DNA of 34,569 nucleotides, from assembly GCA_947499715.1 (NCBI GenBank), contig CANMPL010000019.1:1-34569 (forward strand), written 5' to 3'. This DNA comes from an uncultured Paracoccaceae bacterium. GTDB taxonomy: Bacteria > Pseudomonadota > Alphaproteobacteria > Rhodobacterales > Rhodobacteraceae. Positions 10,082 through 26,348 of the stretch are shown piece by piece. The notes under the pieces were generated by a model. The model was not told the origin of the DNA, made no database searches, and saw nothing but the letters and a program-made list of their open reading frames with translations. The position numbers and the translations under genes are program-made. Positions within the stretch are counted from its first letter, which is position 1. Every line of letters begins with the position of its first letter.

Positions 10082-11335
10082 ATGGATCGTAAATCCCAGC
10101 AGAACCTGTTTCTTGTCGTCGGCGTTGTAGCGATCGCTGTGTTGTTTTTCGTCGTTTTCGTGGTGCTCGCGCCGAAACAAGTCGCGAACGCCGGCATCGG
10201 TGCAAATGAGGCGCCAGCCATTGAGACATCGATTATTGCTGATCGGACCTCGTCGGCGGCACCGGAAATGTCGTGGATCACCACGAGCCGGATTGAAATT
10301 GAAGGTCTTCGCGCACTCACTGAAGATCTCAAGCAGGAGATCGCGGCCGAACGTGTTGGTCGGGATCAAGCAATTGAGCTGATCCACGAAGAGTATGCCT
10401 CGATCATTGAACAGCAAATGATGAAGATCGAAGAGTTGGAGGTGGCCGTCACAAATCTGCCAGCGACAATGCCGGCGCAGCTCCCAGGGACCTCAATTGA
10501 CGGCGAAGGGTTCGAAGATACGGGCAGCGAGTTTATCCGAACCCGGACCGGAGCGCCTCAAAACGTCACACCGTTTGCGCCCACGAATACCCGCGAGACA
10601 CCGCGCCGCTCAGCAGTACCCGGTGATCCGGTTCCATCGGCGCCGCGTTCGTTTGGGAACGATTTCCAATTGTCCGAGCGCGAGGAAATGGTCGAACAAG
10701 CGAGCGTCAATACGCTGCACAACTACATTCCGGCTGGATCTTATGCTCCAGCGGTTGTGTTGTCGGGTGCTGATGCGGCCACAAATGTTGTGAACCGAGA
10801 GAATCCGATCCCTGTTCTGTTCCGTATCTCCGGCCCTGCCGTAACCGCTGGCGTAGGTCGGGGAAGGGGCGCTCGGGTCAATATTACTGGTTGTACTGTT
10901 CAAGGGTCAGCCATGGGTGATCTGAGTTCGGAGCGGGTTCTTGTCCGTCTTCTGACTTTGACCTGCTTGCGGCAGAACGGCGTGATCATGGAAACCGAGA
11001 TCTCGGGATACATGACAGGATCTGGCAAGGCCGGTGTGCGGGGCAGGGTGGTCAGTCGCGAAGGGAATCTCGTGACAAACGCCGGAATCGCAGGCGCGCT
11101 TCAAGGCTTGTCCGGTGCGTTCACCGGAGCGGCCGGATCTGATGATGAGGGCGCGGACCTGGCGGGAATTGCACAAGCAGCTGGCGCAGCTGCGGCAGCT
11201 GGTGGCGTGCAGCAGGCCGCCACAACGCTCTCGGAATATTACATCAATCGCGCTGAGCAATATCAGCCGGTGATTTCTCTCAATGGCGGGACAAACGTTG
11301 AACTCGTCTTTTTGGAAGGTGTTTCTCTACAATGA
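10082..11335 (+). CDS. traB: Type IV secretion core protein TraB
   Basis: This 417-residue TraB/VirB10-like protein spans the envelope, joining the inner membrane to the TraK-TraV outer ring. Visible parts are a short cytoplasmic start, a membrane span at about residues 9-30 (FLVVGVVAIAVLFFVVFVVL), a coiled coil at about 70-125 (IEGLRALTEDLKQEI, EEYASIIEQQMMKIEELEVA), a Pro/Thr-rich linker and a C-terminal TrbI-type beta-barrel domain (GRGRGARVNITGCTVQGSA onward). The ATG at 10082 follows a GAGGTGA site six bases after the traK stop. The 3' end overlaps traV by four bases. Confidence 0.88.
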   Translation: MDRKSQQNLFLVVGVVAIAVLFFVVFVVLAPKQVANAGIGANEAPAIETSIIADRTSSAAPEMSWITTSRIEIEGLRALTEDLKQEIAAERVGRDQAIELIHEEYASIIEQQMMKIEELEVAVTNLPATMPAQLPGTSIDGEGFEDTGSEFIRTRTGAPQNVTPFAPTNTRETPRRSAVPGDPVPSAPRSFGNDFQLSEREEMVEQASVNTLHNYIPAGSYAPAVVLSGADAATNVVNRENPIPVLFRISGPAVTAGVGRGRGARVNITGCTVQGSAMGDLSSERVLVRLLTLTCLRQNGVIMETEISGYMTGSGKAGVRGRVVSREGNLVTNAGIAGALQGLSGAFTGAAGSDDEGADLAGIAQAAGAAAAAGGVQQAATTLSEYYINRAEQYQPVISLNGGTNVELVFLEGVSLQ

Positions 11336-11757
11336 CCAACTCCCTCTTGTTCGGTATTCGCCGTCGTCTATGGATTGCTCTCCCGCTCCTTGCTGTCGCG
11401 GGTTGCGCAGACAACACCCAAGGCGATTTTCTATGTGAGGCACAAATAGGAAGCCCTTGTTCGACGATCAGTCAGGCTGACGGTGGCGGTGTTCCAAACG
11501 TGAACACCGTCAATGAACATGCCGAAGATCGGCTTTCCGACACAATCACGCAGCAACCACTCGGAGTTGGCAAGGGTGGGGCGGCGCAGTTCGCCGGGAT
11601 GCCGGACGGTGGTTTTCCGTATCAAACGAACCGGTATCGTGTCCCTGAGCTTGTGGGCCGGATCTGGATCGCGCCATATCATGATGAAAATGAGATCCTT
11701 CACGAAAGTGCATATATCCATGCCGTGATCGTCGACGCACATTGGGCGACACGCTGA
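11332..11757 (+). CDS. traV: Type IV secretion lipoprotein TraV
   Basis: The 141-residue product has a type II signal peptide with lipobox LAVAGC (lipidated Cys at residue 25). It carries further cysteines soon after (CEAQIGSPC), as TraV/VirB7-type proteins do. It would anchor the TraK-TraB core complex in the outer membrane. The C-terminal segment RVPELVGRIWIAPYHDENE is the conserved TraV end. The gene overlaps traB at its start (ATGA) and traC at its stop. Confidence 0.85.
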   Translation: MTNSLLFGIRRRLWIALPLLAVAGCADNTQGDFLCEAQIGSPCSTISQADGGGVPNVNTVNEHAEDRLSDTITQQPLGVGKGGAAQFAGMPDGGFPYQTNRYRVPELVGRIWIAPYHDENEILHESAYIHAVIVDAHWATR

Positions 11758-14231
11758 TGGGTATTCAGGATTTCTTTGCCAGTCTCTTTGGGGACGCAGG
11801 CTTCAGCGAACCGCGCGAACGCGACATCACCTGCGAAGCGCTTTCTAAGATTTTGCCCTATGAGGTCTTTGATCCTGAGAAACGGCTCTACTTCAACGAT
11901 CATACGATTGGGTTCATCTTTGAAGTCTTTACGACCGTGCAATCGGACGCACTTCAAAATTTCCACGGCGCCATACAATCGTCGATGCCGGTTGGATCTG
12001 GATTGCAGATCTTAAACTGGTCTTCACCGGATATCTCGCGGAGCCTGGAAGATTGGGCGCGCGCGCGCGTTGGAGGTGGCGATATCGGTGAGGCGATGGC
12101 GGCCGCCCGGGTTGCTCATCTTCAGAATCTTCGGTTTGGAACAACCGACGCCGTGAAGGCCCTCCCTTTGAACCGTCGGCGCTTTGTCGTTGGTTGGGTG
12201 CCATCCGACTCAAGCAAATCAGCAGTCGCTGATCTGGATGATTTTCGGCGGGCCATTCTCGGTGCGATTGGCATGGATCAAACCGCTACCATCCTGCCTT
12301 GGGAGTTGATCACTCTGGCAAAAGAACTGCTCCACGCGGAAAACTGGTCTACGCCGTCACCGATGGATTACAGTGACAATCTCCCGATTTCAGCTCAGCT
12401 TTATGGATCTTCGATCAAGGTTACGACCGAAGGACTGACATTCAATGGGAAGCCCCAAATGTCTGCGCGTGTCCTCACGGCATCAAAGTATCCCAACGAA
12501 TGGGAGACGGGTTTATCGATCGTGTTGTCCGGCGAGCCAGACCGGATTTCAGATCGGCCTCATGGTCCGGTCTTAATGTCGCTGAATGCGCAAATGATTC
12601 CGGTTCAGAAGGCCACGGCTGGGATTATCGCACAGCGGGCCAAGATGGAGCACTCCAAGAAGACAGGCTTTGCGAAATTTGCGACCGACTTGGGTGGCAA
12701 GGAGCAAGAACTTCATAGTCTTGCTGAAGAATTGGAAAATGGCGAAAAGCTTCTGTCCACTGTCACGACGGTTGTTTGTTTCGCGCAGGGTGGCGTGGAC
12801 GAGTCGCGGGCGGCAGCCGCTGAAATGATGAAGATTTGGCGGCGCGCAGGCATCATCCTGCGCCACGAACGCTATCTTCAACTGCCGATCTTCATGAACG
12901 CTTTGCCCATGGGCGCTGCGCCAAAACAGATGGCGACGCTCGGCAAAATGATGCGGACCCGCCTGCTGAAAGGCGCGGCTGTCGCTGCGCTTGCGCCGTT
13001 TCACAGTGAGTGGAAGGGCAATTCGCTCGGCGAAGGTGTTCTACTCGTCGGCCGCCAGGGGCAGGTTTTCACATGGAGTAACTTCATCAGCGAGGGCAAC
13101 TACAATGCCTCGGTTGTCGGAAAATCGGGCGCGGGCAAGTCAGTCTTTATGCAAGAGCTTGTCTCCTCTCTGGTTTGCAATGGGGGCCGGTGTCTTGTGA
13201 TCGACGACGGCTACTCGTTTCAGACGATGGCCGAAATCATGGGCGGGCGGCACGTCGCCCTCGACGGGAGCGCACCCATCAGACTCAATCCATTCTCGAT
13301 GCTGGATGCGGACCGCATGGATGGTGAGGAATATGCAGCTGAAGCCGTCGAGCTGTTGGCACGTGTTATCTCGACTATGGGGGCCTTGGGCGAGCAACGC
13401 GAAGGCCGTGTGTCCAACATGGAAGAAGGCTTTATTGCTGATGCGGTAAAGCAGGTTTGGGCTGCGAAGGGGTCGGAAGGGCAAGTTGGAGATGTATACG
13501 AACTTTTGCTAGCGAAAGTGCCATCTGAACCGCGCTTGAAGGACGTTTGTCAGAAACTTTCGAAGTTCATTCCGAGCGGCACATATGGTGCCTATTTCGA
13601 AGGGCCGTCCAACATAACGTTGGATACGCCCCTCACCGTCATCGAGCTTTCGGACATCAAGACTCAACCGGAACTCGAACAGGTCGTCCTTCAGATCGTG
13701 ATGTTTCTGGGAACAGAGCTGATGTATAAAACGGACCGTTCGGTTCGTGTTGCGATTGTCATTGATGAAGCCTGGAGCCTCTTGCGGGGGGCAGGGACAG
13801 CACATTTCATCGAAGGCGTTGTGCGACGTGCCCGCAAATACACCGGGGCACTCATCACCGGAACGCAAAGCGTCGATGACTACTACGACAACCCGGCGGC
13901 CCTAGTCTGCCTGCAGAACTCCGATTGGCAAGTCTTTCTTGCTCAGAAACCAGAAACCATTGATCGATTAGAGGCTGATGGCCGGCTCTCCGCACCCCCA
14001 GGCACGGGTCGGCGATTGAAGTCTCTAACCTCGGTTCCCGGCCAGTTTTCTGAACTGGCGATCAAAGGATCCGAGGGGTGGGTCTTTGGGCGGCTGCTGC
14101 TTGACGCATTCTCCTTGACGGCAGTGTCGTCCAAAGGCTCAACCGTTGCTGAACTCAACCGACTGAAATCCGAGGGGCTTTCAACTGTCGAAGCCGTTGG
14201 CGTAATTGCAAAAGCGGGGACGGCGCAATGA
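11757..14231 (+). CDS. traC: Type IV secretion ATPase TraC
   Basis: This 824-residue VirB4-type ATPase powers pilus assembly at the inner membrane. Walker A is G455-S462 (GKSGAGKS) and Walker B is around D670-E671 (VAIVIDEAW). The N-terminal half is the TraC-F pilus assembly domain, including the stretch ending NPFSMLDAD shortly after Walker A. It then continues into the RecA-like fold, with GTQSVDDYYDNPAALV matching the conserved late motif. The ATG at 11757 overlaps the traV stop; a TTG five codons upstream is open but unnecessary. Length is close to F TraC (about 875). No defect is visible. Confidence 0.95.
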   Translation: MGIQDFFASLFGDAGFSEPRERDITCEALSKILPYEVFDPEKRLYFNDHTIGFIFEVFTTVQSDALQNFHGAIQSSMPVGSGLQILNWSSPDISRSLEDWARARVGGGDIGEAMAAARVAHLQNLRFGTTDAVKALPLNRRRFVVGWVPSDSSKSAVADLDDFRRAILGAIGMDQTATILPWELITLAKELLHAENWSTPSPMDYSDNLPISAQLYGSSIKVTTEGLTFNGKPQMSARVLTASKYPNEWETGLSIVLSGEPDRISDRPHGPVLMSLNAQMIPVQKATAGIIAQRAKMEHSKKTGFAKFATDLGGKEQELHSLAEELENGEKLLSTVTTVVCFAQGGVDESRAAAAEMMKIWRRAGIILRHERYLQLPIFMNALPMGAAPKQMATLGKMMRTRLLKGAAVAALAPFHSEWKGNSLGEGVLLVGRQGQVFTWSNFISEGNYNASVVGKSGAGKSVFMQELVSSLVCNGGRCLVIDDGYSFQTMAEIMGGRHVALDGSAPIRLNPFSMLDADRMDGEEYAAEAVELLARVISTMGALGEQREGRVSNMEEGFIADAVKQVWAAKGSEGQVGDVYELLLAKVPSEPRLKDVCQKLSKFIPSGTYGAYFEGPSNITLDTPLTVIELSDIKTQPELEQVVLQIVMFLGTELMYKTDRSVRVAIVIDEAWSLLRGAGTAHFIEGVVRRARKYTGALITGTQSVDDYYDNPAALVCLQNSDWQVFLAQKPETIDRLEADGRLSAPPGTGRRLKSLTSVPGQFSELAIKGSEGWVFGRLLLDAFSLTAVSSKGSTVAELNRLKSEGLSTVEAVGVIAKAGTAQ

Positions 14232-14614
14232 GGTTTACGGACCTACCTCGTTTCATTGCTTTCTTCTGTCTTGGTGCAATTCTGTTTGAGTTGTCCGTCA
14301 TGGCTTTTTTGCGGTTTTCCGATCTTCAGGAGCAGGCGCAAGCCTCGCAGCCAAGCCGCCAGCCTCAAATCCTCACTGTGGATCCTGATGCTATTTTGAA
14401 GTTGTTTGTTGAGCAGCGCGGCTTGGGACTGGAAGGTGATGCCTTCACCCTCGCAGTGAGAAAACTCGACAGTATCGTGGCGAGAGAAGCGTCTCGCGTT
14501 CACGCTGAATTTGGGGTGCTTGTGGTCAAAGCTGATCTCGTCCTTGCGGGTGGGACTGACTACACAATGCCATTTCTGGAGCGTGTCCTGCAAACTTGGG
14601 ATGCGACGCCATGA
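14228..14614 (+). CDS. trbI: Type F conjugation protein TrbI
   Basis: The 128-residue inner-membrane protein has one span (about residues 8-27, RFIAFFCLGAILFELSVMAF). A periplasmic domain follows (ILKLFVEQRGLG, VLVVKADLVLAGGTDYT). Length and position between traC and traW match F TrbI, which affects pilus outgrowth and retraction. It overlaps traC by four bases (ATGA) and the following peptidase gene in the same way. Confidence 0.75.
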   Translation: MRFTDLPRFIAFFCLGAILFELSVMAFLRFSDLQEQAQASQPSRQPQILTVDPDAILKLFVEQRGLGLEGDAFTLAVRKLDSIVAREASRVHAEFGVLVVKADLVLAGGTDYTMPFLERVLQTWDATP

Positions 14615-15165
14615 CCTTGGATTTCACCAAAGGCAAAAAGACGCGTCAGCCGCTGAAGCGGTGGCATTGGATCGCTATCACTTTCGTAGCCCTGCTTTCG
14701 GTGTGCGTGTTCTACATGCTTTCGGCAACGCGGGTGGTGGTCAACGGCACAACGTCTTTGCCACACAACGGCTATCTGATGGTGACCTGGCCCAAGATGG
14801 TCCGGATCGACTCGTATGTTGCATTTGATGCGCCCGATGAGATCTCCGACAAGTTCGAACATCTGGTTTTCATCAAGCGGGTCGTTGGTGTGCCAGGTGA
14901 TCTTGTGACGTCCAATGATGGACGCGTGTGTGTCAACGCAGAATGCCGGACGCTCTTGCCAGAGATGGCGGCGAACGGATACGCGGCCCTTCCGGCGCAC
15001 GTGTTGCCTGCCGGCCAATTTGCCGCGTTCGGAGATGCGTCCGACTCTCTGGACAGCCGTTACGCCGCAATCGGAACGGTCAAAAGATCTCAGATCGTCG
15101 CCGTTGGTTACCCAATCTCAATGCCACATTGGAAGGAGCTTGGAACATGGCTCGGTACGTTTTAA
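14611..15165 (+). CDS. S26-family peptidase (RP4 TraF / TrhP type)
   Basis: The 184-residue protein has an N-terminal membrane span (about residues 20-38) and the S26 signal-peptidase signatures. The probable nucleophile is Ser49 (NGTTSLPHNGY) and the general base is Lys89 (FIKRVVGVPGD). Near the C-terminus, GDASDSLDSRYAAIG is the usual last box. In RP4 and H-type pilus systems this class of enzyme processes the pilin and closes it into a ring. A leader peptidase role for other Tra proteins is also possible. It is translationally coupled to trbI (ATGA), and its 3' end covers the traW ribosome binding site. Confidence 0.85.
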   Translation: MTLDFTKGKKTRQPLKRWHWIAITFVALLSVCVFYMLSATRVVVNGTTSLPHNGYLMVTWPKMVRIDSYVAFDAPDEISDKFEHLVFIKRVVGVPGDLVTSNDGRVCVNAECRTLLPEMAANGYAALPAHVLPAGQFAAFGDASDSLDSRYAAIGTVKRSQIVAVGYPISMPHWKELGTWLGTF

Positions 15166-15779
15166 TGACTGCAGCTGCGCTCGGAGCGCTGTTGTGGAGT
15201 GATCCAACTGTCGCCAAGGATCTTGGGACGCACGGACCAGTTTTTGAGATTGCGGAGCCGTCAATTCTTGATGCTATTCATGACCGTTTGCGCGGCATGG
15301 TGGCGAGCGGCGAACTCGATCAGATGCGTCAGGACATGGAGGACACGACACGGGCCTATGTGCAACGGCCACGGCCGGTCGCTGGTCTCACACGTGCGGT
15401 TGAGGACAGATATTTTGCTGTTGATCTTTCGATCACGGTTGAGCGGGATCTGACTGATCATCGCGGCGTTGTATTTGCGCGGGCAGGGGATGTCATCAAC
15501 CCCTTAGATTATTCGATGTTCGGCAAACGCATTGTGATGCTCGATGGCGATGATCCCGAGCAAGTGGCCTATGCGCTGTCTCACGGCACAGAGATCGACA
15601 CGCTTCTGATCCTGACAAACGGCGAGCCGCTCGCTCTCACCAAACAACATGGTCGACGCTTCTATTTCGACCAAGATGGCGTGATTTCCTCCCGCTTCGC
15701 CATCACTGCCCTGCCCGCCGAAATCGTGCGCGGGCAGGGCGTCATGAATGTCCACGAAGTTGCACTGGGAAGGAATTGA
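15147..15779 (+). CDS. traW: Type F conjugation protein TraW
   Basis: This 210-residue periplasmic protein has a signal peptide (to about residue 23, ending PTVA) followed by KDLGTHGPVFEIAEPSILD. That is the hallmark start of mature TraW (xDLGxxGxxxxIxExDLL). In F it works with TraU and TrbC in pilus assembly. I chose the ATG at 15147 because GGAAGGAG lies at 15131-15138; the frame is open upstream inside the peptidase gene. The late segment GRRFYFDQDGVISSRFAI is the conserved TraW end. A perfect 11-bp stem-loop lies inside its last codons. Confidence 0.9.
   Translation: MARYVLMTAAALGALLWSDPTVAKDLGTHGPVFEIAEPSILDAIHDRLRGMVASGELDQMRQDMEDTTRAYVQRPRPVAGLTRAVEDRYFAVDLSITVERDLTDHRGVVFARAGDVINPLDYSMFGKRIVMLDGDDPEQVAYALSHGTEIDTLLILTNGEPLALTKQHGRRFYFDQDGVISSRFAITALPAEIVRGQGVMNVHEVALGRN
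15708..15740 (+). other. Perfect 11-bp stem-loop inside the 3' end of traW
   Basis: GCCCTGCCCGC (15708-15718) is the exact reverse complement of GCGGGCAGGGC (15730-15740), with an 11-base loop. It lies 40 bases before the traU start and has no T-run, so it could influence RNA processing or translation at the traW/traU junction. Confidence 0.6.
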
Positions 15780-15781
15780 GC

Positions 15782-16762
15782 ATGAAGACGCTATTGTTGG
15801 CATTGGCGTTCATCTGTGTGTCCCAAGGGGCCATCGCCAAATGCAATGCAAAGTTCCTAAATCCAATCACTGAAGTGTGTTGGGACTGCATTTTCCCGAT
15901 ATCGGTTGGTGGATTGAGTCTCTTCAACAGTCGCCCTGACACGTCAAACCAAGCCTTTCCCCTGTGTCTTTGCTGGACGGGTCTTCTGCCGCGCGTCGGC
16001 TTGTCAATTGGGCTTTGGGAGCCAGCGCGACTTGTTGATGTGGCGAATGAAGCCGGTTGCTTTGTCAATATCGGGTTTGACATGGACTTTGGTCTTTTCG
16101 CCGCCGGGACATCAACCGCGACGGCCGCAAACGGCGGGGAGACCGGTTCATCATGGCAAGCGCACTACTATTACTATCCGCTAATCAGTTGGTTGGGGAC
16201 AGTGGTTGATGGCCTCTGCCTCGAAACCACGGCCTTCGATATTGCCTACATAAGCGAGATCGACCCGCTCTGGAACGATGTCGAACTCAATAACCTGCTC
16301 AATCCCGAGGCAATCTTGTTTGCAAATCCGATTGCGCAGTCAGCGTGCGCAGCGGAATGTGTACGTGCGTCATCGGGGAACTTGTCGATGGATGCCCTGT
16401 TTTGGTGCAACGGGTGCCAGGGTGGCGTTTATCCAATCGCAGGTGAGGTGAACTCCAGCTACGGCGGCATTATGGCCAGCCAATCCGTAGCCACCCGCAT
16501 CACGGCGCGGATGCACAGGCTGCTATTGGCAAGAAAGACGGCCAACAATCCAACGACGTGCGCGCCAAGGTCTGCGCCCATCATCCCCAAGAGCCAGTAC
16601 CGCCAGCAGGTGACAAGACCGCGCGCGACAACTTCTGGGCGTTACGCGGGAGCACCTATCGGATCAAGCACACAGTTCGTTGATCGATTGCGGGAATACC
16701 CATTCGACGGAGAAAGTTTTGGCTGGTTGATTTGGAGGAAACGCAATTGCTGCGCGCTTTAA
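15782..16762 (+). CDS. traU: Type F conjugation protein TraU
   Basis: This 326-residue cysteine-rich periplasmic protein is needed for DNA transfer and pilus assembly in F. A signal peptide (to about residue 19, ending GAIA) precedes KCNAKFLNPITEVCWDCIFP, which is nearly the family consensus. Further landmarks are CLCWTG, GLWEPARLVDV and the C-terminal IPKSQYR, followed by FGWLIWRKRNCCAL. The segment between the last two is divergent and lacks the Cys often seen there, but the frame is continuous and I see no frameshift. AAGGA lies upstream of the ATG. The gene end overlaps trbC. Confidence 0.93.
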   Translation: MKTLLLALAFICVSQGAIAKCNAKFLNPITEVCWDCIFPISVGGLSLFNSRPDTSNQAFPLCLCWTGLLPRVGLSIGLWEPARLVDVANEAGCFVNIGFDMDFGLFAAGTSTATAANGGETGSSWQAHYYYYPLISWLGTVVDGLCLETTAFDIAYISEIDPLWNDVELNNLLNPEAILFANPIAQSACAAECVRASSGNLSMDALFWCNGCQGGVYPIAGEVNSSYGGIMASQSVATRITARMHRLLLARKTANNPTTCAPRSAPIIPKSQYRQQVTRPRATTSGRYAGAPIGSSTQFVDRLREYPFDGESFGWLIWRKRNCCAL

Positions 16763-17532
16763 TTACAGCTGGTGCGATTATCGCGGTCGTCGCCTTTATC
16801 GCCATTGGGGGTCCTGCGTCGTCCCAGACCTCGGTCGTTGACGACCAGTCAGGCGAGGGCATGCAAGAATTTGCGCCAGGTGCGCAGGGTCAGATCCGAC
16901 CATCCATTCCAACGATGTTGAACGATGCAGAGGCCTTGGCGGAAGCCTGGCAAGAGCGCCTTCAGATACAGGAGCCGCAGGCCTATCAGCCGCGCGTGGA
17001 TCTCGAAGAGCTGCGGCTGCGCGCTCTGAATCATCCGCGTGTGCGCGCACTTCTTAATGCGGATGACGGCGATGCAAATGGCGGCGCGGCCGATCAGCCG
17101 CGTTATGCGTCAAATCAGGTCTTTCTGTTCGCGTCCTTCTCAATGCCGGAACCGAGCTTACGTGCCATGATGGCCGAGGCGGATGCGCTTGATGTGCCGG
17201 TGCTATTCCGCGGTTTTGTGAACAATTCCGTGTTTGATACCCAAGAGAAGCTGCTTGATGTCTTTGGCCAAGACGCCAACATCATTGGCTTCTCCATCGA
17301 TCCGACCATGTTTGTTCGTTTTGGCATCGAAACCGTGCCCGCCATTGTGATTACGGCCGAGCCTGTTGAGCCTTGCGAGACGTCTGGTTGCGCAAACGAT
17401 CTCTCTCCGCCTCACGATATCATCCGGGGCAACATTCCACTTCTTTCGGCTTTGGATCTCGCCGCCAGGGCGGGCGGCGAAGGGGCCATCGCAGCAGATG
17501 ATCTGCGCAGTCAAGCAGGTGTGAAGCGATGA
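16747..17532 (+). CDS. trbC: Type F conjugation protein TrbC
   Basis: The 261-residue product is the periplasmic TrbC, which in F works with TraW. The family core is FLFASFSMPEPSLRAMMAEA followed by the thioredoxin-like FVRFGIETVPAIVI. I propose TTG at 16747 as the start. GGAGGA at 16734-16739 is seven bases upstream, and the resulting N-terminus LLRALITAGAIIAVVAF is a good signal sequence. The start lies inside the last codons of traU. The region between the signal and the core is acidic and Gln-rich, and longer than in F TrbC (about 212 residues). Confidence 0.85.
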   Translation: MLRALITAGAIIAVVAFIAIGGPASSQTSVVDDQSGEGMQEFAPGAQGQIRPSIPTMLNDAEALAEAWQERLQIQEPQAYQPRVDLEELRLRALNHPRVRALLNADDGDANGGAADQPRYASNQVFLFASFSMPEPSLRAMMAEADALDVPVLFRGFVNNSVFDTQEKLLDVFGQDANIIGFSIDPTMFVRFGIETVPAIVITAEPVEPCETSGCANDLSPPHDIIRGNIPLLSALDLAARAGGEGAIAADDLRSQAGVKR

Positions 17533-18731
17533 ATGTTTTGAGCCCTGTCATTGTCGCTGGGATTTTTCTGAGCTTTGCAGGCGCCGCCTATGCCGCAAGT
17601 CATACTGAGAGGGATGCCGCGGAAGACGCGTTGAATAGCCTGGGCCCGGTTACCGATCAGATCACAAACGGAAACATGCAAAATACCGTTGTTCCTTTTG
17701 GTGGCACAAACATCGACGAGGCCAATTTGGAGCCCTCTGAGTTTGACCGCGAGATTCTGGATATTCGTGCGGGTAGCGGCCAAGATGGGCGGGCGCACCA
17801 ATCGACCGTCGATAGCTTCAATAACCGACCCCAGATCGATCTGGGGTCTGATCCTCTCGCGCTCGCCGACGACTCGGTCGAGAATGCCGAAGCAGGGTTG
17901 GGCGGGCTGTTCTCGGCAAACAGTGGCACCTGTGATGCCTTCTTTCAGGACGGGTCTTACGACGGGCTGAAGCTCTGTAACGCGATTTTGAAACGCGACA
18001 TTCGGGTCTGCGAAGTTTGGCGCGATATTTCGGTGGACCGGGAAGACTTCTGGGCATGTGAGATGGCCGAGCGAGACTTTACGCGAACGTGCACACGTAA
18101 TGTGTCCTGGACGTGTACGGGGATGACAGGTGCGGCTTGTCGCGCGGACCGGCTTCGCGCAAATCGATCGTTCACATGGGAACATAGCAATCGTCAGATG
18201 CGGTTTCACTTTGCTGGCGACGATACGTTCCAGGTTTGCTTTGTTCGGTCGCAGCGGATCGTGCTCAAGTCCTATGTCGGGTTTGATATCACGCAGTTGG
18301 ATGTTTCGCGTTTTGCATTCAGCGGAATAGGGCAGATCCAAGTGAATGGTGATGTCGTCTGGACGACTGGCACTGATTCACGCGGGCCGCTCAACATCAA
18401 GTATCTCGACGCTGGCGGGAAAGACGGCTCCAGCGGGCTGTCGGCCGTCGTCCATGCGGGTGCGACCCCGATTGACTTTTGTCCGCCAGCCGGCGCGCCG
18501 ACGGTATCTGCACCGCGGCTGTCACTGTTGAGCTCGGTTCAGATACCACGACCTGGGCCAAGCCAGATCAATGCGAACAATCGCCCGTTTATCCCAATGG
18601 GCGAGAAGGAAGACATCGTCATCGACCTTTTGGTCGCGAACATGACGATGAAACCAGACATTGAATTTCGACTGAATGTTGATGGTGCTTGTTGCTCGCA
18701 CATCTCCGCGACGGGCGGTGAGACATGTTGA
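17529..18731 (+). CDS. TraN-like mating-pair stabilisation protein, first part
   Basis: The 400-residue protein has a signal peptide (to about residue 22, ending GAAYA). Its N-terminal region (about 30-120) is acidic and low in cysteine. From about residue 145 on, cysteines are spaced through the sequence (12 in all, including CEVWRDISVDREDFWAC and CTRNVSWTC). The position between trbC and trbB/traF, and the following Cys-rich gene, identify the pair as the counterpart of TraN, the outer-membrane adhesin that contacts the recipient. It ends normally at TGA 18729-18731, seven bases into the next gene. Whether it should be called TraN alone is uncertain. Confidence 0.65.
   Translation: MNVLSPVIVAGIFLSFAGAAYAASHTERDAAEDALNSLGPVTDQITNGNMQNTVVPFGGTNIDEANLEPSEFDREILDIRAGSGQDGRAHQSTVDSFNNRPQIDLGSDPLALADDSVENAEAGLGGLFSANSGTCDAFFQDGSYDGLKLCNAILKRDIRVCEVWRDISVDREDFWACEMAERDFTRTCTRNVSWTCTGMTGAACRADRLRANRSFTWEHSNRQMRFHFAGDDTFQVCFVRSQRIVLKSYVGFDITQLDVSRFAFSGIGQIQVNGDVVWTTGTDSRGPLNIKYLDAGGKDGSSGLSAVVHAGATPIDFCPPAGAPTVSAPRLSLLSSVQIPRPGPSQINANNRPFIPMGEKEDIVIDLLVANMTMKPDIEFRLNVDGACCSHISATGGETC
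17827..17848. repeat. 22-bp perfect palindrome inside the first traN ORF
   Basis: GACCCCAGATC (17827-17837) is followed directly by its exact reverse complement GATCTGGGGTC. It encodes part of the acidic N-terminal region. It could be a protein binding site or form a hairpin in the mRNA. Confidence 0.6.
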
Positions 18732-20101
18732 GAATTCTGGCCTGCCTCATGCTGTTGTCCATCTTGCCAAGTATGGCCTTCGCTGCGACCTGCACCCGAG
18801 AATCAGCCACCTGTGTGCGTACAACAAACCCCACAGTGGATGGCGTACGATTGCAAAGTGTCTGTCGCGAGGTAGAGCTGGAGGAGCTTTGCGAACGGGA
18901 TAATCCGGTCAACGAATGCGTTCCTTTCAATGCTGCTCGCATCACCCACAATAATGCGCTTCGCGACGGAGAGTGCCGGCGCACGTCACGCGAGTGTACG
19001 CGCTATCGCAACGGCGACTGCGATCGGTGGCTGCTGAAGTTTACATGTTGGAATGGTCCATTGGAGCATTCCCCGGCTGACCTTGAAGATCGCGTTTTCC
19101 ACAATTTTGAGGAACGGAACGTCGATAGTTGTGGCCCCTTGAACAGCGACCCAAACTGCACCCGTAAGAATGATGTCATTACGGAAGATTACGAGACGCG
19201 CAACATCAATGGGTTGGATGTCACGCGCGCCTGGTGGCGTCGGGATCGCAATTATGACTGCACAGATCCGTCGCTCGATGAGACCTGTGGCCCTTTTGAG
19301 GGCAATCCGGTTTGTACAAGGACAACAGATGAACTCTGCCTCATGCGCGCGCCCGATGGCACCTGTATTCACGCGCAACTGAGCTATGATTGTGATGTGG
19401 ATGCGAACTTCACCGCATCTTGTCAGTCGATAAACGTGTGCGTCGGGAATAACTGCACCGGTATCGACAGCGAGGCTTCGCAAGACTTTCCGAAGGCGGC
19501 CGCCTGGCTCAACGTCCTTGATAGCATGGCCGACGATTTTGGATGTAGCCCCGATGGCGACGTTATAGATCCCACCACTGGAAATCTGGATCTGGCCGCT
19601 TGCCCGGTGGATCCCGCTCTCATGAATGCGTTCGATCCGCGGTTGTTTACGGGCACGTCAATGATCTGCAATCGTGGATTATTCAACTGCTGTGACGGTG
19701 ATGGCCAAGGGAGTTGCCCCCCTGAAGCCGAGGAACTGGCAAACTTTCGGGACGCCGGCGTTACTCACTTTGTCCAGTCTGAATGCACAAGTGAGGCCCT
19801 TGGGATCTGCCTGAACGTCAGGGAGTATCACTGCGTCTACAAATCCAAGTTTGCGCGTGTATTTCAGGAACAAGCGGACCTGCAAACAGGTGTGCAGTTT
19901 CCCTCACCGCACTCGGTTCTCCCGTGCCCCGCGCTCGATATCTATCAGCTGGAACTGTTGGATGTGGATGCGATGGATCTCTCAGAAGTCTTTGGTGATC
20001 TGTTCGATCAAATTGAAGAGCCCAAACAAGACGACATCACCAATCAGTTGACCAACGGCGTCACAACCTTTGCACCGGAGGTCCAAGATGTCTTTGAATA
20101 G
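18725..20101 (+). CDS. traN: TraN-like Cys-rich mating-pair stabilisation protein, second part
   Basis: This 458-residue protein has its own signal peptide (MLRILACLMLLSILPSMAFA, cleavage at about 20). About 30 cysteines are spread through the mature part, as in TraN, the disulfide-bonded outer-membrane protein that stabilises mating pairs. Two related units are visible, CGPLNSDPNCTR and CGPFEGNPVCTR, about 55 residues apart. The C-terminal CNRGLFNCCDGDGQGSC and the closing Cys-containing segment resemble the conserved TraN tail. It overlaps the preceding ORF by seven bases, and its signal peptide argues against simple damage of one long gene. The disulfide enzymes TrbB and TraF follow immediately. 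Confidence 0.8.
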   Translation: MLRILACLMLLSILPSMAFAATCTRESATCVRTTNPTVDGVRLQSVCREVELEELCERDNPVNECVPFNAARITHNNALRDGECRRTSRECTRYRNGDCDRWLLKFTCWNGPLEHSPADLEDRVFHNFEERNVDSCGPLNSDPNCTRKNDVITEDYETRNINGLDVTRAWWRRDRNYDCTDPSLDETCGPFEGNPVCTRTTDELCLMRAPDGTCIHAQLSYDCDVDANFTASCQSINVCVGNNCTGIDSEASQDFPKAAAWLNVLDSMADDFGCSPDGDVIDPTTGNLDLAACPVDPALMNAFDPRLFTGTSMICNRGLFNCCDGDGQGSCPPEAEELANFRDAGVTHFVQSECTSEALGICLNVREYHCVYKSKFARVFQEQADLQTGVQFPSPHSVLPCPALDIYQLELLDVDAMDLSEVFGDLFDQIEEPKQDDITNQLTNGVTTFAPEVQDVFE

Positions 20102-20495
20102 GCGCGCCCTTTTGTCCTTGATGATCGGCGGCGTTGCAGCCTCAGTATCATCGAAGGTGTCAGCACAGGCTGCGGAATCAACTGGCATCATCTTTGTCGG
20201 CGCAAGCTGGTGTCCAGTTTGCAAACAGGCCTCACCAATGCTGGACGTATTCGCACAGCGTCACAACATTCCCATTCTGGTGGCGTCTCATGATGCCAGG
20301 CCGATCACGCCCTTCACGGAGTTCGTCGATGCGCGTGACCATCCGATTGCATCATCAGTCAGGGCATTTCCAACAACCTTTGTTTTTTCTTCGCGCACCC
20401 AAGAAATCGTTGGTGGGTTTGAGGGATACCGAAGCCCGCAATGGTATCTGGGAAACCTGCTGGATCTTGTTCGCCAATCTGAGGGGATATCGTAA
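20088..20495 (+). CDS. trbB: Thioredoxin-fold protein TrbB
   Basis: The 135-residue exported protein has a thioredoxin active site, W41-C42-P-V-C45. It also has the cis-proline region AFPTTFVF, so it is a periplasmic disulfide oxidoreductase or isomerase. In F, TrbB helps fold Cys-rich Tra proteins such as TraN and TraU. The N-terminus carries NRRALLSLMIGG, which resembles a twin-arginine signal; ordinary Sec export is also possible. The ATG at 20088 follows GGAGG by seven bases and lies inside the end of traN. It is shorter than F TrbB (181 residues). Confidence 0.85.
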   Translation: MSLNRRALLSLMIGGVAASVSSKVSAQAAESTGIIFVGASWCPVCKQASPMLDVFAQRHNIPILVASHDARPITPFTEFVDARDHPIASSVRAFPTTFVFSSRTQEIVGGFEGYRSPQWYLGNLLDLVRQSEGIS

Positions 20496-21340
20496 TGCAT
20501 CCAGCCGTTCTTGTTGCAATCGCTTCATCAGCAATTCTGCTTGGTGTCCCGAATTATGCGGCTGCAGAGGCATTCCGTATTACCAAATGTGAGACTCGCG
20601 AGACCACGGGATGGAATTTCTATTGCCGAGATCCTGAACCTGAAGAAGAGCCCACGGCGCCAGAACCCGCTCCAACGCCTGAAATCACACAGGCACCTGA
20701 GCCTGAACCGGTGCCGGAGGCACCGCCAACGGCGACTGAGCAAATGATGGCATTTCGGGCGCAGGTGGATGAGATCAAGCACCGCGCGGTCCTCGATCCA
20801 ACGCCAGAGAATGTCTTAGCCTATATGGAAATCAATAAGCTTGTCGCTGATCGGGCAGGGGACTTCGCGGAGCAATGGCAACGGGTTTTGTTTGAAACCC
20901 CGCATCTCAACGCGAATGTGGACAGCCCATTGGCGGCTGCGGGCATCAGCGTTTTCCAAGATCAAATGAAGGCGGCGCGGGAAGCGGCGTTCGTCAAAGT
21001 GGCCCAAACCTCAGGCATCTTGTTCATTTTTGAAGGCGATGCGCGCTGTGGCATTTGCCGTGTCCAGGGTGAGGTCCTTGCGCAGATGCAGGAGAATTTC
21101 GGGGTCTCCATTCTAGCCGTTTCCAAAGACGGGGGCGGTAACGCCTATTTTCCGAACGCCTTCGCCGACAATGGACGCCTGGACGAGTTGGGGCTGTCGG
21201 ACTTCCCGGCGCCAACCTTGGCTCTGATCGATCCGGTTACCCGTGACGTCTCTGTCATGGGATCTGGTCTGATTACCGCCGATCAGGTGCTCGAACGCGT
21301 CTTCTTAATCACTGAAGTTCCAGTAGGGGAGCAGTATTAA
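20495..21340 (+). CDS. traF: Type F conjugation protein TraF
   Basis: This 281-residue periplasmic protein has a signal peptide (to about residue 24, ending YAAA), then a short Cys pair (KCETRETTGWNFYC). A Pro/Glu-rich linker (about residues 48-80) leads to a thioredoxin-like domain. The linker is longer than in F TraF. The putative active site is C185-G-I-C188, whereas F TraF lacks a CxxC, so this version may be catalytically active. FPAPTLALIDP holds the cis-proline. The start ATG overlaps the trbB stop and the stop overlaps the traH start. Confidence 0.88.
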   Translation: MHPAVLVAIASSAILLGVPNYAAAEAFRITKCETRETTGWNFYCRDPEPEEEPTAPEPAPTPEITQAPEPEPVPEAPPTATEQMMAFRAQVDEIKHRAVLDPTPENVLAYMEINKLVADRAGDFAEQWQRVLFETPHLNANVDSPLAAAGISVFQDQMKAAREAAFVKVAQTSGILFIFEGDARCGICRVQGEVLAQMQENFGVSILAVSKDGGGNAYFPNAFADNGRLDELGLSDFPAPTLALIDPVTRDVSVMGSGLITADQVLERVFLITEVPVGEQY

Positions 21341-22728
21341 TGTTCGTTTCAAAGCAAACGGCAATTGGTGCCATTCTTTCGCTTTTCATGGCCGGCCCTG
21401 TGTCGGCCGATGTCGCCGGAGATCTGGAGAACTTCTGGACGAACTCGGGCGGCGGCGTGAATGTAAGTCGGCCGATGACCTATGATGGTCAACGTGCGGG
21501 CTATGCGACGCTCGGCTCTGTTCAGGTTCGGACGCGAAGCCGGAACAGCAATCTGGTTAATATCCAATTGCCTTCTGTGCGTGCTGGTTGTGGCGGCATC
21601 GACCTCTTTGGCGGTGCGTTTTCGTTCATTTCGAAAGACGAACTTATCGCCTTGATGGAAGCGATTATGCAAAATGCGTCGGGCTTCGCGTTTGAGCTGG
21701 CGCTGGAGAGCATGTCACCTGCTGTTCAGGAGACCGTGGCGAAGCTCAGAGATCTTGTTCAGCAAGTCAACGCCATGAATATCAACAGTTGTGAGGCGGG
21801 TCAGATCCTGACGTCGTCTCTTTGGCCGGCCATGGAAGGTGCGAGCCAGCACATCTGTCAAACAGTAGGTTCCTACCAAGGATTGTTCGCGGATCGAATT
21901 GCGTCCCGGCACGGGTGTGGTGTTGGTGGGGATCACATCGATACGATCAATCAAGCTGCCGGAGAACTGCAGGAACAAGTTCCATACGACATTAACTATG
22001 CATGGGAAGCGACGAAGAAGAACGCATTTCTATCTTCGGATCGTCGCCTTGCCGAATTTTTCATGACTTTGACAGGGACGATCATCACGCGGGCACCTGC
22101 GAACGACAATGAAGGTCCGCAGCACCGTCCAATTGCACCACGCGCTGGCAGTGAGGAGATGCTTCGGGTCCTTGTCGAAGGTGGGACAGTCGAAGCGCTC
22201 TATTGTGGAGGTCAGACCAATTGTCTGAACCCTGTTCTGCGTAATCTCACCATTCCGCGCAACCGGGCGCTCTTCCAATATACGGCAGATACGATCGCGG
22301 GGATCCGCGATGCCATCCTGGCAGGGAACGCCACAATTTCGGATGAGGCTGTGGCGCTCTTGGGTATGACCTCGGTACCCGTTCTGGACATGTTGGTCAC
22401 CGGCATGAGTTACCAACACGTCTTTGTCGATAGCGAGATCCAAGCGATGGCTGAAGTCGTTGCTGTTGATTTGGCCATGATTTATATCGACCAATCCCTT
22501 CGGGAGATGGGAGCTTCGGCTGGTCGGATCGCGACGTTCGGCGACTTCACGATCAAATACCAAGAGCAAATTCAGCAGACGCAGAACAACTTTGCCGGTC
22601 TTCGGCAGTTGGCGGCAGAGCGATATTCACACGCGATGCGGACGCTGGAGAGGTTGGCATTGGCCAAAAAGGAACTGGCAGCATATTCGTCGTCCCGTTT
22701 CGCCGCGATGCTTGGGTCTAGCCAGTAA
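21340..22728 (+). CDS. traH: Type F conjugation protein TraH
   Basis: This 462-residue periplasmic/outer-membrane-associated protein is needed for pilus assembly. A signal peptide (to about residue 23, ending GPVSA) precedes the characteristic DLENFWTNSGGGVNVSRP and SVRAGCGGIDLFGGAFSFIS, close to the family consensus. CEAGQIL around residue 150 and the C-terminal coiled-coil stretch (RQLAAERYSHAMRTLERLAL) are also typical. Length equals that of F TraH. Both ends overlap neighbouring genes by one base. Confidence 0.95.
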   Translation: MFVSKQTAIGAILSLFMAGPVSADVAGDLENFWTNSGGGVNVSRPMTYDGQRAGYATLGSVQVRTRSRNSNLVNIQLPSVRAGCGGIDLFGGAFSFISKDELIALMEAIMQNASGFAFELALESMSPAVQETVAKLRDLVQQVNAMNINSCEAGQILTSSLWPAMEGASQHICQTVGSYQGLFADRIASRHGCGVGGDHIDTINQAAGELQEQVPYDINYAWEATKKNAFLSSDRRLAEFFMTLTGTIITRAPANDNEGPQHRPIAPRAGSEEMLRVLVEGGTVEALYCGGQTNCLNPVLRNLTIPRNRALFQYTADTIAGIRDAILAGNATISDEAVALLGMTSVPVLDMLVTGMSYQHVFVDSEIQAMAEVVAVDLAMIYIDQSLREMGASAGRIATFGDFTIKYQEQIQQTQNNFAGLRQLAAERYSHAMRTLERLALAKKELAAYSSSRFAAMLGSSQ

Positions 22729-25700
22729 TGTCCGAGTTCGAGATTTATACGACGGGCGGCGGATACTATCTTTGGGATCTGTTCAACTATCTCGCTATCT
22801 TCACCGGCAACGGCGCTTGGATGGAGTTGCTGACAATCGGCATTCTCGTCGGCGTAATCTGGAAAACGATCCAGATTGCGGTGACCGGTTCTATGCAAGG
22901 GACCTGGACCTATTTGGTCGTCCTTGCGGTTGTTGGTGCTCTGGGTGTTGGACCGAAAGCGCGCGTCATCATTATTGATTCAACGTTTCCGCTGGGGATC
23001 TACGGTACAGTCGACAATGTGCCGTACTCAGTCGCATTGGTAGCCAATGTCACCAGTAAAACCTCCCACACCTTAACTCGACGTATGGAGGCGCTGTTGG
23101 CCACACCAAACAGCCTCACATACCAGAAAAATGGGATGATCGTGGGGGCGAGTCTGCTTGCCCAAGCGGCACGCTGGCGCGCGGTGACACCAACGATTCA
23201 GACGAACCTCGTCAACTTCATGGAAAATTGCATGATTGATGGTGCCAATGTCGGTCTCGTGGACATCGACGCGCTGGCGCGTGCCAATTATTTGCCAACT
23301 TTCATAACAGCTAATGTTCCAGGAGCGTTGGCGTACTTCGATGAGACGCAAGGCGCCACGGTTCGCTGCACTGATGGCTGGGCGAACCTTTCAAGCACGG
23401 TCAATGACGAAGTTGACAACATCTTGCTTGCCGAGGCCGCTGGCAATGCGCCAGCTGATCGGTTTGGTAATCGAAACAACTTTGACCCCAATGCGTTGAC
23501 TGGATCCATTGAGGATTTCCAAGCCATGTTGGGCCTCGCTGGGATGCAGGCCACGGGCTATATCCAGCAATCGATGCTGATCACCGCGCTTGATGATGCA
23601 TCAGGTCGGCTTATCGCAAACTCCGGGAATGCGGCTGCGATGGAACTTTACCAAAGGGCGCGCGCAGAGAGCCAAACGAGATCAAGTTATCAGATCGTGG
23701 GGTCATCAGCCACGAAGTGGGTTCCGATCCTGAAAATCACGTTTGAAGCGTTGTATCTTGGGGCGTTTCCGCTGGCGATGCTCTTGATGATGACCCCCAT
23801 GGCGATGACGGTCGCGCGAGGTTATTTTGGCGGCTTTGTTTGGCTTGCTGCTTGGGAGCCGATGTCTGCAATTCTGCACACAGTCGTATTGAAGTCTGCG
23901 ACAGGTTGGTATCGCGATCAGATGGTAACGATCGACGGGTCCACCGTCCAAAACGCGTTGACCTGGGCCAATCATTTGGGCGTCCATTCGGTTGAGGGTG
24001 ATGTCGGCGTTGTGGCGGGCTATCTAATGATGTCGGTGCCGTTCCTGTCGTTTGCCGTCCTCTTTGGGGCCAATAAGATGGCTGGATTGGCGACCTCGAT
24101 GTTGAATGTCAGCCAAGGTGCTGCAATTGAGACCGGCCGCGAGGCGGCAACTGGGAACGTGTCTTTGGGCAATGGTTCAATGAACAACATGCGTGCGAAC
24201 CAATATACCGCTTCAGCGATGGTCGATACGGGACGCTCAAGCTACTACACCGCCGATGGCGGCGTTACGACATCGAATGCGGACGGCTCGCGGACATACC
24301 AATCTGGATCTGCTCAATCTAATGTTGGAATGAGTGCGAGTGTGGGTCAGACGGTCCGCGAGGAGGTCTCCGATCGTTCGGCAGAGGCATGGCGATCTGT
24401 TGAGACATCAAGTGAAGAGTTTGGCCGCAGTCTTTCTGCGACGACGGGGCAACTCAGTGATTTTGCACGGTCTGCGAGCTACACTCAAACAGCTGGCGGC
24501 GAACGCAGCTGGAGTGGTAGCGAAGAAGAAAGGCAGCAGGTCGAAGATACATGGCGTCAGGTTGAGCGACTTGCGGAGAACCATGGTCTTTCTACCGATA
24601 TTGCGTTGTCCGCTGCGGTCTCTGCTGGTGCGGGTGTCACAGCGGGTGTCGCACGTGCTGGTCTTGAAGCGAGCGGAAAATTGAATGCAGACTCTAGGGA
24701 ATCCTTTGATCGTGCATACGAAGACGCCAAGACGAGTGGATTGTCGAGTTCAGTTAGCCAGACCATATCTACCTTGGATCGCGCCTATTCTGGATCGTCC
24801 TCTTCTGAGGGGGAATCTGGAACAAACTCTGTCCGAAGCAATTTCGAATCGATGCAAAACGAAGCGCAACGATACTCGTCGTCCTATGAGCAAGCACAAA
24901 CGCTGGATCGCGCGAATGCGTGGTTGCAATCGAAAGACTACAGCTACAATCAACGCATCACAGATGCGGTCATCGGCGAGCTGGAGGAACAAGGCTATGG
25001 CCCTGACCAGATATCCAGACTTGTAAATCCCAAGACGACCGCCGGGATCAGGCGTCAGGAGGAAGTTGTCGGAGCCATCCTACCAGACATCATCCAGGAT
25101 CTTGGTATTATGGGAGGTCGACCCAATGCAGAACCTCCGGCATCTGGCCCGAGTTATTATGGAAGTGGCAATGTCGTTGCGACGCCCGTAGATCCCGCAT
25201 CCGCCAACGTAGTGCGGCCGGATGTCGGGCATCGTCAGATGGCCGAAGAGAATGCCAACCGGCTTTCTGATGCTGTATTTGATGATGTGAATGAACGCCT
25301 GAATGACGCCGATTCAGGGTCAGACAACCGTCGTGCGAATGTTGAGCGGCGATTGTCCGATGGGGCCAAAGAGACCGATCGCATGGTGGGCGGTGCGTTT
25401 GTCGATCGTGCGGCCGGCGTCGTTGGATTGGGCCCAGTGTTTGGTGACATGCCGTCTCAAGGGTCTACACCGCAATCGCCTCCCGCCCCAGCACCGCAAC
25501 CTCGCTCTGGTCCGTCTTCCTTCAATACGCCGTCAACGCAACGCGATCTTTCGGCATATGAAAAGGATGTCATGGTCCGGACAATCATCGGGGAGGCTGC
25601 GAACGAAGGAGTTGTTGGTCAGGCCGCAGTGGCTCATACGATCCGTAATCGGGTGTTGGATAGTCGTTGGGGCGATGATCCAGCTGAAGTCTCGCTGCAG

Positions 25701-26000
25701 TTCAAACAGTTTTCTGCCTGGAATGACGGGGCAGGGGGCAACAGCCTCCCGACGAAATACAATCCCGGAGACGCTCTGTATGACAGGGTGGCAGAGACTG
25801 TGGACAATGTCTGGAGTGGGCAAACACCAGACATGACTGGTGGTGCGACATTCTATTATTCTCCAGCAGGTATGGACGCTCTTGTGAACGAAGGGTCTCA
25901 GTCCAACAGCCTGCCTAGCTGGTTGTCACAGGAAAATGCAGACAGGGGTGCGCCCCCCGCGCGTATCGGGGGACACATTTTTACCGGCCGGGTCAGGTAG
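22728..26000 (+). CDS. traG: TraG mating-pair stabilisation protein with C-terminal cell wall hydrolase
   Basis: The 1090-residue protein starts with the TraG-N inner-membrane domain: FEIYTTGGGYYLWDLFNYLA, spans near residues 35-80, and further spans around 340-460. A long Ser/Gln/Glu-rich periplasmic region (about 480-780) is followed by a Pro-rich linker. Residues about 940-1088 form a SleB/CwlJ-type hydrolase (Hydrolase_2): VRTIIGEAANEGVVGQAAVA with probable catalytic E956, HTIRNRV, and GATFYYSP. F TraG (938 residues) has no such domain. Here it may replace the separate lytic transglycosylase that opens peptidoglycan for the channel. It is the last gene of the operon; a convergent gene ends eight bases away. 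Confidence 0.9.
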   Translation: MSEFEIYTTGGGYYLWDLFNYLAIFTGNGAWMELLTIGILVGVIWKTIQIAVTGSMQGTWTYLVVLAVVGALGVGPKARVIIIDSTFPLGIYGTVDNVPYSVALVANVTSKTSHTLTRRMEALLATPNSLTYQKNGMIVGASLLAQAARWRAVTPTIQTNLVNFMENCMIDGANVGLVDIDALARANYLPTFITANVPGALAYFDETQGATVRCTDGWANLSSTVNDEVDNILLAEAAGNAPADRFGNRNNFDPNALTGSIEDFQAMLGLAGMQATGYIQQSMLITALDDASGRLIANSGNAAAMELYQRARAESQTRSSYQIVGSSATKWVPILKITFEALYLGAFPLAMLLMMTPMAMTVARGYFGGFVWLAAWEPMSAILHTVVLKSATGWYRDQMVTIDGSTVQNALTWANHLGVHSVEGDVGVVAGYLMMSVPFLSFAVLFGANKMAGLATSMLNVSQGAAIETGREAATGNVSLGNGSMNNMRANQYTASAMVDTGRSSYYTADGGVTTSNADGSRTYQSGSAQSNVGMSASVGQTVREEVSDRSAEAWRSVETSSEEFGRSLSATTGQLSDFARSASYTQTAGGERSWSGSEEERQQVEDTWRQVERLAENHGLSTDIALSAAVSAGAGVTAGVARAGLEASGKLNADSRESFDRAYEDAKTSGLSSSVSQTISTLDRAYSGSSSSEGESGTNSVRSNFESMQNEAQRYSSSYEQAQTLDRANAWLQSKDYSYNQRITDAVIGELEEQGYGPDQISRLVNPKTTAGIRRQEEVVGAILPDIIQDLGIMGGRPNAEPPASGPSYYGSGNVVATPVDPASANVVRPDVGHRQMAEENANRLSDAVFDDVNERLNDADSGSDNRRANVERRLSDGAKETDRMVGGAFVDRAAGVVGLGPVFGDMPSQGSTPQSPPAPAPQPRSGPSSFNTPSTQRDLSAYEKDVMVRTIIGEAANEGVVGQAAVAHTIRNRVLDSRWGDDPAEVSLQFKQFSAWNDGAGGNSLPTKYNPGDALYDRVAETVDNVWSGQTPDMTGGATFYYSPAGMDALVNEGSQSNSLPSWLSQENADRGAPPARIGGHIFTGRVR

Positions 26001-26008: not shown

Positions 26009-26272
26009 TTAGTTTTTGTCCCAGCTGTAAATATTGGCTGTTGACGTAGAGTCGTACGGAACAAGACTCTCAACAGAGCCACTCAGGTTTTCACTGGTTG
26101 TGATGGAAGGTTGGAGTCCCTGGGGTTTCGCGCCCAAAGCAAGCAGAAGTGCCCACCACGCGCTGAAGCCCGCAAATGCCCACCAACCGGGTGCCAGGAC
26201 GTAGCCGAGCACGGCACAGACAAATGCAATCGCCAAAGCGACTGCGACGCCATTTGTGAATTTCAAAATCAT
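26009..26272 (-). CDS. Small inner-membrane protein next to traG
   Basis: This is an 87-residue protein on the minus strand. The ATG at 26272 is preferred because AAGGAG lies nine bases upstream; the frame extends 12 codons further. Two hydrophobic segments (about residues 6-25 and 28-47, VAVALAIAFVCAVLGYVLAP and WWAFAGFSAWWALLLALG) form a hairpin, and the polar C-terminal half is Ser/Thr-rich. It converges with traG, eight bases between stops. In F-like plasmids an entry-exclusion membrane protein (TraS) sits next to traG and acts on it. This is a positional candidate only, with no sequence match claimed. Confidence 0.6.
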   Translation of the reverse strand: MILKFTNGVAVALAIAFVCAVLGYVLAPGWWAFAGFSAWWALLLALGAKPQGLQPSITTSENLSGSVESLVPYDSTSTANIYSWDKN

Positions 26273-26348
26273 GAGCGGCAGCTCCTTCAAAGTCAGGGTT
26301 GTTATCATAGCAGGAACAAAACAAGAAAACTACCCGCCGAAACATGAC

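Follow-up and report, generated by a model that had tools for sequence, protein, structure and literature searches.

What is a cell wall hydrolase doing at the end of a conjugation protein? The question is raised by a stretch of 34,569 nucleotides from an uncultured Paracoccaceae bacterium (assembly GCA_947499715.1, contig CANMPL010000019.1; hereafter the window), which carries an F-type transfer operon running from a pilin-like gene (8098) to traG (22728-26000). A first-pass annotation made from the letters alone had proposed that this TraG, in contrast to TraG of the F plasmid, ends in a Hydrolase_2-like domain behind a long Ser/Pro-rich tether, and that the fusion replaces the usual separate lytic transglycosylase. 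In our opinion it is likely, judging from sequence comparison, that the protein is an F-type, VirB6-like subunit whose tethered lytic transglycosylase tail stands in for VirB1.

Is the domain real? A single frame of 1090 residues on the forward strand holds both TraG_N, the membrane part (residues 5-466, 22740-24125; Pfam E 1.7e-86, 291 bits), and PF07486 Hydrolase_2 (residues 959-1085; E 1.7e-11, 45 bits against a curated cut-off of 27), and these are its only Pfam matches. TraG_N, together with the place directly behind traH (21340-22728, forward; Pfam TraH E 1.7e-103), makes it an F-type TraG, as in F itself. All five hydrophobic segments lie before residue 447. Residues 467-792 (24126-25103) are, by composition and model, mostly helical and Ser/Ala-rich after a low-confidence start (447-503), and residues 793-942 (25104-25553) form the disordered Pro/Ser-rich tether: the predicted local distance difference test score (pLDDT) is below 50 for 793-938, and 861-945 contain 12% Pro and 13% Ser. 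The tether is thus as first described, and the motifs quoted at the time (IIGEAANEGVVGQ, HTIRNRV, ATFYYSP) are indeed in the tail. The hydrolase domain itself occupies residues 943-1090 (25554-25997).

An AlphaFold2 model of TraG, built on 19 aligned TraGs, has a mean pLDDT of 62.8 and a whole-model predicted template modelling score (pTM) of 0.34; from residue 943 onward the domain mostly scores in the 80s, falling to 56 around 1001-1010. Foldseek with this model gave no match as good as E 1e-3. Its top three are SleB chains (4f55, 4fet; E 2.3e-3 to 4.7e-3, prob 1.00, TMt 0.73-0.79, root mean square deviation 5.2-6.4), followed by VirB6/TrwI-VirB5 stalk chains of R388 (E 0.18-0.41, prob 0.63-0.66). 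Because these last matches are weak, we speak of a suggested kinship of TraG with VirB6. SleB, the best fold match to the tail, is a spore cortex-lytic enzyme; unlike the tail it belongs to no transfer machine but serves germination in Bacillus. Its match to the tail at the sequence level is weak (E 0.0053 and 0.019). Glu956 (codon 25593-25595) is aligned with the GE of 4f55, that is, with the Glu of a GEA motif that we take to be catalytic in SleB, and the position is Glu in 64 of 64 aligned rows, the window included. These results support a SleB-type hydrolase domain with an intact Glu at the catalytic position. We rejected a chance match, since the domain scores above the curated cut-off, finds the SleB fold and recurs as a fusion in several genera; kinship with SLT enzymes is rejected by both Pfam and fold matches.

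An intact fold could still serve as a wall-binding anchor or regulator for which catalysis is unneeded. This has a precedent in PrgK of pCF10, where two of three hydrolase domains are reported to be inactive or regulatory (PMC11323569), and three relatives of our protein (L035, L037, L038) have a divergent Hydrolase_2 beside a second domain. However, the Glu956 position is kept throughout, and the hydrolase domain shows the least amino-acid change of the four TraG regions in one pairwise comparison, with the nearest relative L031: the proportion of nonsynonymous differences (pN) is 0.093 there, 0.130 in TraG_N, and 0.197 and 0.278 in the tether, at a synonymous proportion (pS) of 0.71-0.85 across the regions (pN and pS are quoted because pS is saturated outside TraG_N and yields no dS there). 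We therefore regard a non-catalytic role as very improbable.

Is the fusion peculiar to this genome? Among 390 genomes of the order, TraG_N is found (E up to 0.001) in 13, and in 10 of these the tail domain follows in the same frame; in G328 the two lie on fragments of different contigs, and in G302 and G322 no tail was found at TraG_N. Matches to the tail outside the 13 are a 425-residue frame of G094 (59%, adjoining masked bases, its sequence TraG-tail-like), a fragment in G230 (43%) and chromosomal genes (at most 42%); extra matches in G246 and G266 are a 605-residue frame at 42% and a stop-containing stretch at 59%. A survey of TraG homologs, which the first-pass annotation had called for, finds the same fusion in 29 of 33 tails (Hydrolase_2 at E up to 0.01), a frequency that is biased because the sample was collected by similarity to mostly tailed TraGs. 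The 33 comprise the window, 31 others of Rhodobacterales-type elements and Maritalea, with near-copies such as L055-L058 retained; left out were L012 (traG interrupted by IS256), the incomplete L037, L051, L059 and L028, and L029 and L030, whose weak TraG_N is missed by the TraG profile (L125, a longer stretch of L029, has no tail match by profile). Pfam finds no wall enzyme at E up to 0.1 in 38 further tails (none longer than 400 residues), taken from alphaproteobacteria outside this set and from the phylum at large. No evidence was found for an accidental gene fusion or an assembly artefact; complete plasmids from Leisingera, Phaeobacter, Pukyongiella, Cereibacter and Gemmobacter encode a TraG built in this way and so contradict the idea, which we find scarcely conceivable. 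Two curiosities of this sample are a second, degenerate Hydrolase_2 copy ahead of the normal domain in L036 (frame residues 999-1095), and the IS256 copy inside traG of Cereibacter azotoformans pORIO3 (L012 12656-13927), which splits TraG_N from the hydrolase.

The four tails without Hydrolase_2 (L013 of Maritalea, L015 of Yoonia, L050 and L052) end in another domain, for which Pfam gives no peptidase family at E up to 5. In L035 and L038 this second domain comes after a weak, divergent Hydrolase_2, and L037 has Hydrolase_2 and the start of the second before the contig ends; both domains are thus seen in three proteins, one of them cut off. A model of the second domain (mean pLDDT 68, pTM 0.72) retrieves nine Hedgehog chains and, in tenth place, the phage endolysin LysB4, at poor E values (0.18 to 2.1). 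Hedgehog and M15 peptidases have a common fold. The pattern HxxGxAxD, presumably the zinc motif of such peptidases, occurs in one of six of these TraG tails (L015) and in both rows from viral contigs (L145, L146). Tentatively, we call the domain M15/Hedgehog-like. Searches of the PDB with phmmer and profiles and a search of PHROGs were unproductive, phage records gave no match, and the order-wide search returned two of 380 genomes, both partial. Separately, one of the 38 further tails, from an alphaproteobacterium of another family (L131 2044-3243), shows an M15-like motif by eye (HYDDRALD, DHLHV), with no database support. A second, unrelated wall-enzyme-like tail at the same place of TraG counts in favour of our main reading.

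Does the tail stand in for VirB1? All known Gram-negative VirB1 homologues have been placed in one class, GAMMA (PMC12857230, section 10), and these SLT enzymes of type IV secretion systems (T4SSs) share with the TraG tail a probable task, local opening of peptidoglycan. They differ in family (PF01464) and in being separate soluble proteins of the periplasm, whereas the tail has no SLT domain and is fused to TraG. F TraG (938 residues) has only TraG_N in Pfam, as the first-pass annotation had it, and F, unlike the window, has a separate SLT gene. We searched 22 whole plasmid records for PF01464 and judged the absence of a tail by profile for either tail type. An SLT gene is present in one of 10 complete plasmids with a tailed TraG versus eight of nine tail-less F-type plasmids (F, Sphingopyxis, Brevundimonas, Novosphingobium, Aurantiacibacter, Vibrio, Polymorphobacter, Pantoea). 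The tailed plasmids with none are those of Leisingera aquaemixtae, C. sphaeroides, Maritalea, Yoonia, C. azotoformans (pORIO3 and pORIO2), Phaeobacter, Pukyongiella and Gemmobacter. In three of the 22 records no F-type TraG is in play and they were not counted: IncU pFBAOT6 (no SLT), pHNFP671 (one under the cut-off) and pDE3 (one). The first and second of these have a stand-alone SleB-like gene in the VirB1 position, before topA-virB2 (L016 8872-9609 and L017 7860-8606); that of pFBAOT6 (29% identity), in a plasmid without an SLT match, counts for the idea that a SleB-like enzyme can take the place of VirB1. A separate transglycosylase elsewhere in the element would speak against replacement, and no SLT match was found on the window's contig (C19) or on C12, the contig with the coupling protein.

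Several points weigh against this. The plasmid of Leisingera caerulea has a tailed TraG and also an SLT gene, lipoprotein-like, about 6 kb from traG; Bandiella has neither an SLT gene nor a detected tail; the match counted as SLT for Brevundimonas is partial and, at 22.9 bits for a cut-off of 21.3, weak; and pORIO3, counted as tailed, is the plasmid with the broken traG. Fisher's test gives 0.0011, valid only if the plasmids are independent, and since they are related the count overstates their independence. The host genome itself has seven SLT matches (contigs C1, C2, C3, C7, C9) that could serve in trans; two stretches of about 3.3 kb inspected around these matches look chromosomal by eye. 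Finally, VirB1 function is reported as not always essential (PMC12857230, section 10). Taken with these reservations, the claim of replacement appears to hold: judged from the plasmid comparison, the TraG tail seems to take over from a lytic transglycosylase encoded separately, and a tailed TraG would be a simple reason why most such F-type plasmids are without an SLT gene.

How might this work? The C-terminus of F-like TraG is described as periplasmic (PMC9797247), and by analogy that of the window would lie on the same side. We infer this periplasmic side, along with the likeness to VirB6, the enzymatic activity and the role in assembly or passage of the channel. An inner-membrane, VirB6-like TraG of the F type would end in the periplasm in a SleB-type lytic transglycosylase on a flexible tether of about 150 residues. 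Anchored in this way, the domain would sit at the base of the pilus or transfer channel and cut peptidoglycan locally, letting the channel be built or passed, which is the task that a soluble VirB1-type SLT may perform for other F-type plasmids. In some relatives the second domain, which looks like a zinc peptidase, takes the place of the hydrolase or accompanies it.

Where does the domain come from? With an E limit of 1e-3, the tail finds matches in 90 of 50,697 phage records, of which the best rows share 49-56% identity with it (top 55.6%), and PHROG 15649 matches it at E 2.9e-47. We looked at the gene context in seven T7-like phages (six filed as Autographiviridae, Oiolarie just as Caudoviricetes). 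Here the domain is internal: it spans about residues 220-390 in proteins 1076-1300 residues long that are encoded beside tail genes, whereas in the window it is C-terminal and part of TraG. Two tail genes (called tail tubular proteins A and B in some phages, without a name in SI01) and a protein of about 170 residues precede the large podophage protein. In five of the seven it is followed by a gene with the annotation internal virion or internal capsid protein; in Atu_ph03 the following gene is large and unnamed, and Oiolarie is arranged differently. In an N4-like phage a SleB-type domain is in the gene preceding the virion RNA polymerase. PHROG 15649 and several records label the protein endolysin; gene order and size indicate that the large proteins are probably virion proteins. 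Of the eight best-scoring among at least 80 IMG/VR contigs, six enclose the domain in a frame of 1089-1206 residues; in the other two it opens a shorter frame. The M15-like tail has its best non-TraG relative (54%) in a 735-residue protein; before it come genes that match PHROGs 394 and 376, both of tail proteins, and an open reading frame (ORF) of 181 residues, a position that resembles that of the podophage SleB-bearing proteins, and another relative sits in a tape-measure-like protein.

In a tree of 81 rows, 26 TraG tails and 15 domains of large phage proteins fall on one side of a branch with support 96/96, while 16 small viral lysins, 16 other long viral frames and eight chromosomal enzymes remain outside. 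This tree used 40 viral-contig domains chosen by score and omitted three plasmid rows, L208, the second domain of L036 and 10 of 18 chromosomal rows. In a 56-row tree, TraG fell together with five of the phage rows, though weakly supported (85/41), and two T7-like rows had no resolved place. From these sequence comparisons, the TraG tail and the large podophage domains (PHROG 15649) are members of one subfamily, which refines the first description: the nearest kin that we found are phage domains, and not a chromosomal PF07486 enzyme of the host or stand-alone plasmid ones. The approximately unbiased test neither establishes nor rejects one common origin for the TraG fusion (p-AU 0.159), and because the tree is unrooted it gives no direction of transfer between phages and plasmids. 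An origin from a chromosomal Hydrolase_2 enzyme of the host was rejected, since the chromosomal rows are set apart as a group by a branch of length 2.2-2.3 and, in that alignment, reach no more than 38% identity with the window; the three stand-alone plasmid enzymes inspected were rejected at 27-28% identity.

The phage kinship invites another explanation, namely that the tail acts mainly on the recipient: TraG, thought in F to reach TraS, would present the hydrolase beyond the donor envelope and open the recipient wall as ejected virion lysins do. For both tail types the closest kin found outside TraG lie in large phage proteins adjoining tail genes, which lends this idea, raised by the first-pass annotation as well, circumstantial support. 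T7 gp16 is reported to cut peptidoglycan on ejection; the domain responsible acts while the genome enters, and it can move to the homologue of gp15 (PMC8954989). The encounter of F TraG* with TraS reportedly takes place in the inner membrane of the recipient (PMC9797247). Together with the phage kinship and the length of the tether, this model makes recipient-side action a serious alternative. Still, common ancestry of a domain does not fix its site of action, the phage protein is labelled endolysin and its probable place in the virion is read from gene order and size, and a donor-side need accounts equally well for the SLT pattern. Action on the donor side suffices to explain that pattern, and we hold a mainly recipient-side role to be unlikely.

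The rest of the operon is that of an F-type system, and all of its recognised genes are on the forward strand. Pfam recognises traE (8725-9363), traK (9360-10076), a TrbI/TraB-like gene (9920-11335), traV (11332-11757), the traC ATPase (11742-14231), an S26 signal peptidase (14596-15165), traW (14928-15779, TraW_N), traU (15776-16762), F-type trbC (16732-17532), traN (18725-20101) and traF (20495-21340), in addition to traH; for traE, the TrbI/TraB-like gene and traW the real start is probably more internal. The pilin-like gene (TrbC/VirB2, 8098-8469) is under the cut-off at E 0.0075. ORFs 14228-14614 and 17529-18731 had no significant match in the Pfam scan, which covered the operon apart from ORF 20070-20495. 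The genome's only coupling-protein match (TrwB_AAD_bind) is on contig C12 (47535-48686), which makes it probable that the assembly has divided the element. A LuxI-type synthase and a LuxR-type regulator adjoin the operon (5084-5656 and 6385-7056, reverse strand), and transfer is possibly under quorum-sensing control. Further upstream (2951-4783, forward) lies an RTX-type calcium-binding protein with 17 repeat stretches.

Convergent with traG is a small membrane-protein ORF (26009-26308, reverse) without a Pfam match. A convergent short ORF of 71-144 residues with one or two hydrophobic segments stands directly behind traG in the 14 loci compared (the window and 13 plasmid loci), with low similarity between groups, and none is annotated there in the loci of Bandiella, Vibrio, Polymorphobacter and Pantoea. 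It is a candidate for a fast-evolving entry-exclusion gene. A role as immunity gene against the hydrolase was rejected because four tail-less TraGs are also followed by such an ORF.

Has such a fusion been described before? We found no description of a TraG-SleB/Hydrolase_2 fusion in the open-licence literature, judged by titles and abstract openings, and likewise nothing joining TraG with PF07486, or orf169 with the F plasmid and transglycosylase. The nearest precedents, as far as these sources go, are two. Polyvalent proteins of phages and conjugative elements resemble the tailed TraG in having putative wall-breaching domains: a few carry PF07486 and a limited subset a DD-peptidase, with a proposed role in breaching peptidoglycan (Iyer et al. 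2017, PMC5512222); TraG and VirB6 have no occurrence in the text of that article. The muramidase domain of PrgK is similar to the tail lysozymes of phages, and a phage origin has been raised as a speculation by its authors (PMC11323569). PrgK and TraG of pIP501 (Gram-positive, and not an F-type TraG) are, like ours, membrane-tethered wall enzymes of T4SSs; unlike ours they belong to the VirB1 class, have other domains and are not fused to a VirB6-like subunit.

How DNA crosses the recipient wall in Gram-negative conjugation is, to our knowledge, an open question. The contribution of complex domains in extended VirB6 proteins 'is not yet known' either (PMC12857230). Given an identifiable wall-cutting domain and natural relatives with swapped tails, both questions become testable by single-residue loss-of-function mutants. 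It is conceivable, although unlikely, that conjugation and tailed phages share a pool of wall-piercing modules, that TraG bears and displays, and perhaps delivers, an entry lysin of phage type opening the recipient wall ahead of the DNA, and that a glycan cutter, a peptide cutter or both fit the same socket. Because the domain's closest relatives sit in phage proteins that may help phage DNA into the cell, the two DNA-delivery machines, although unrelated, may share one tool for passing the wall.

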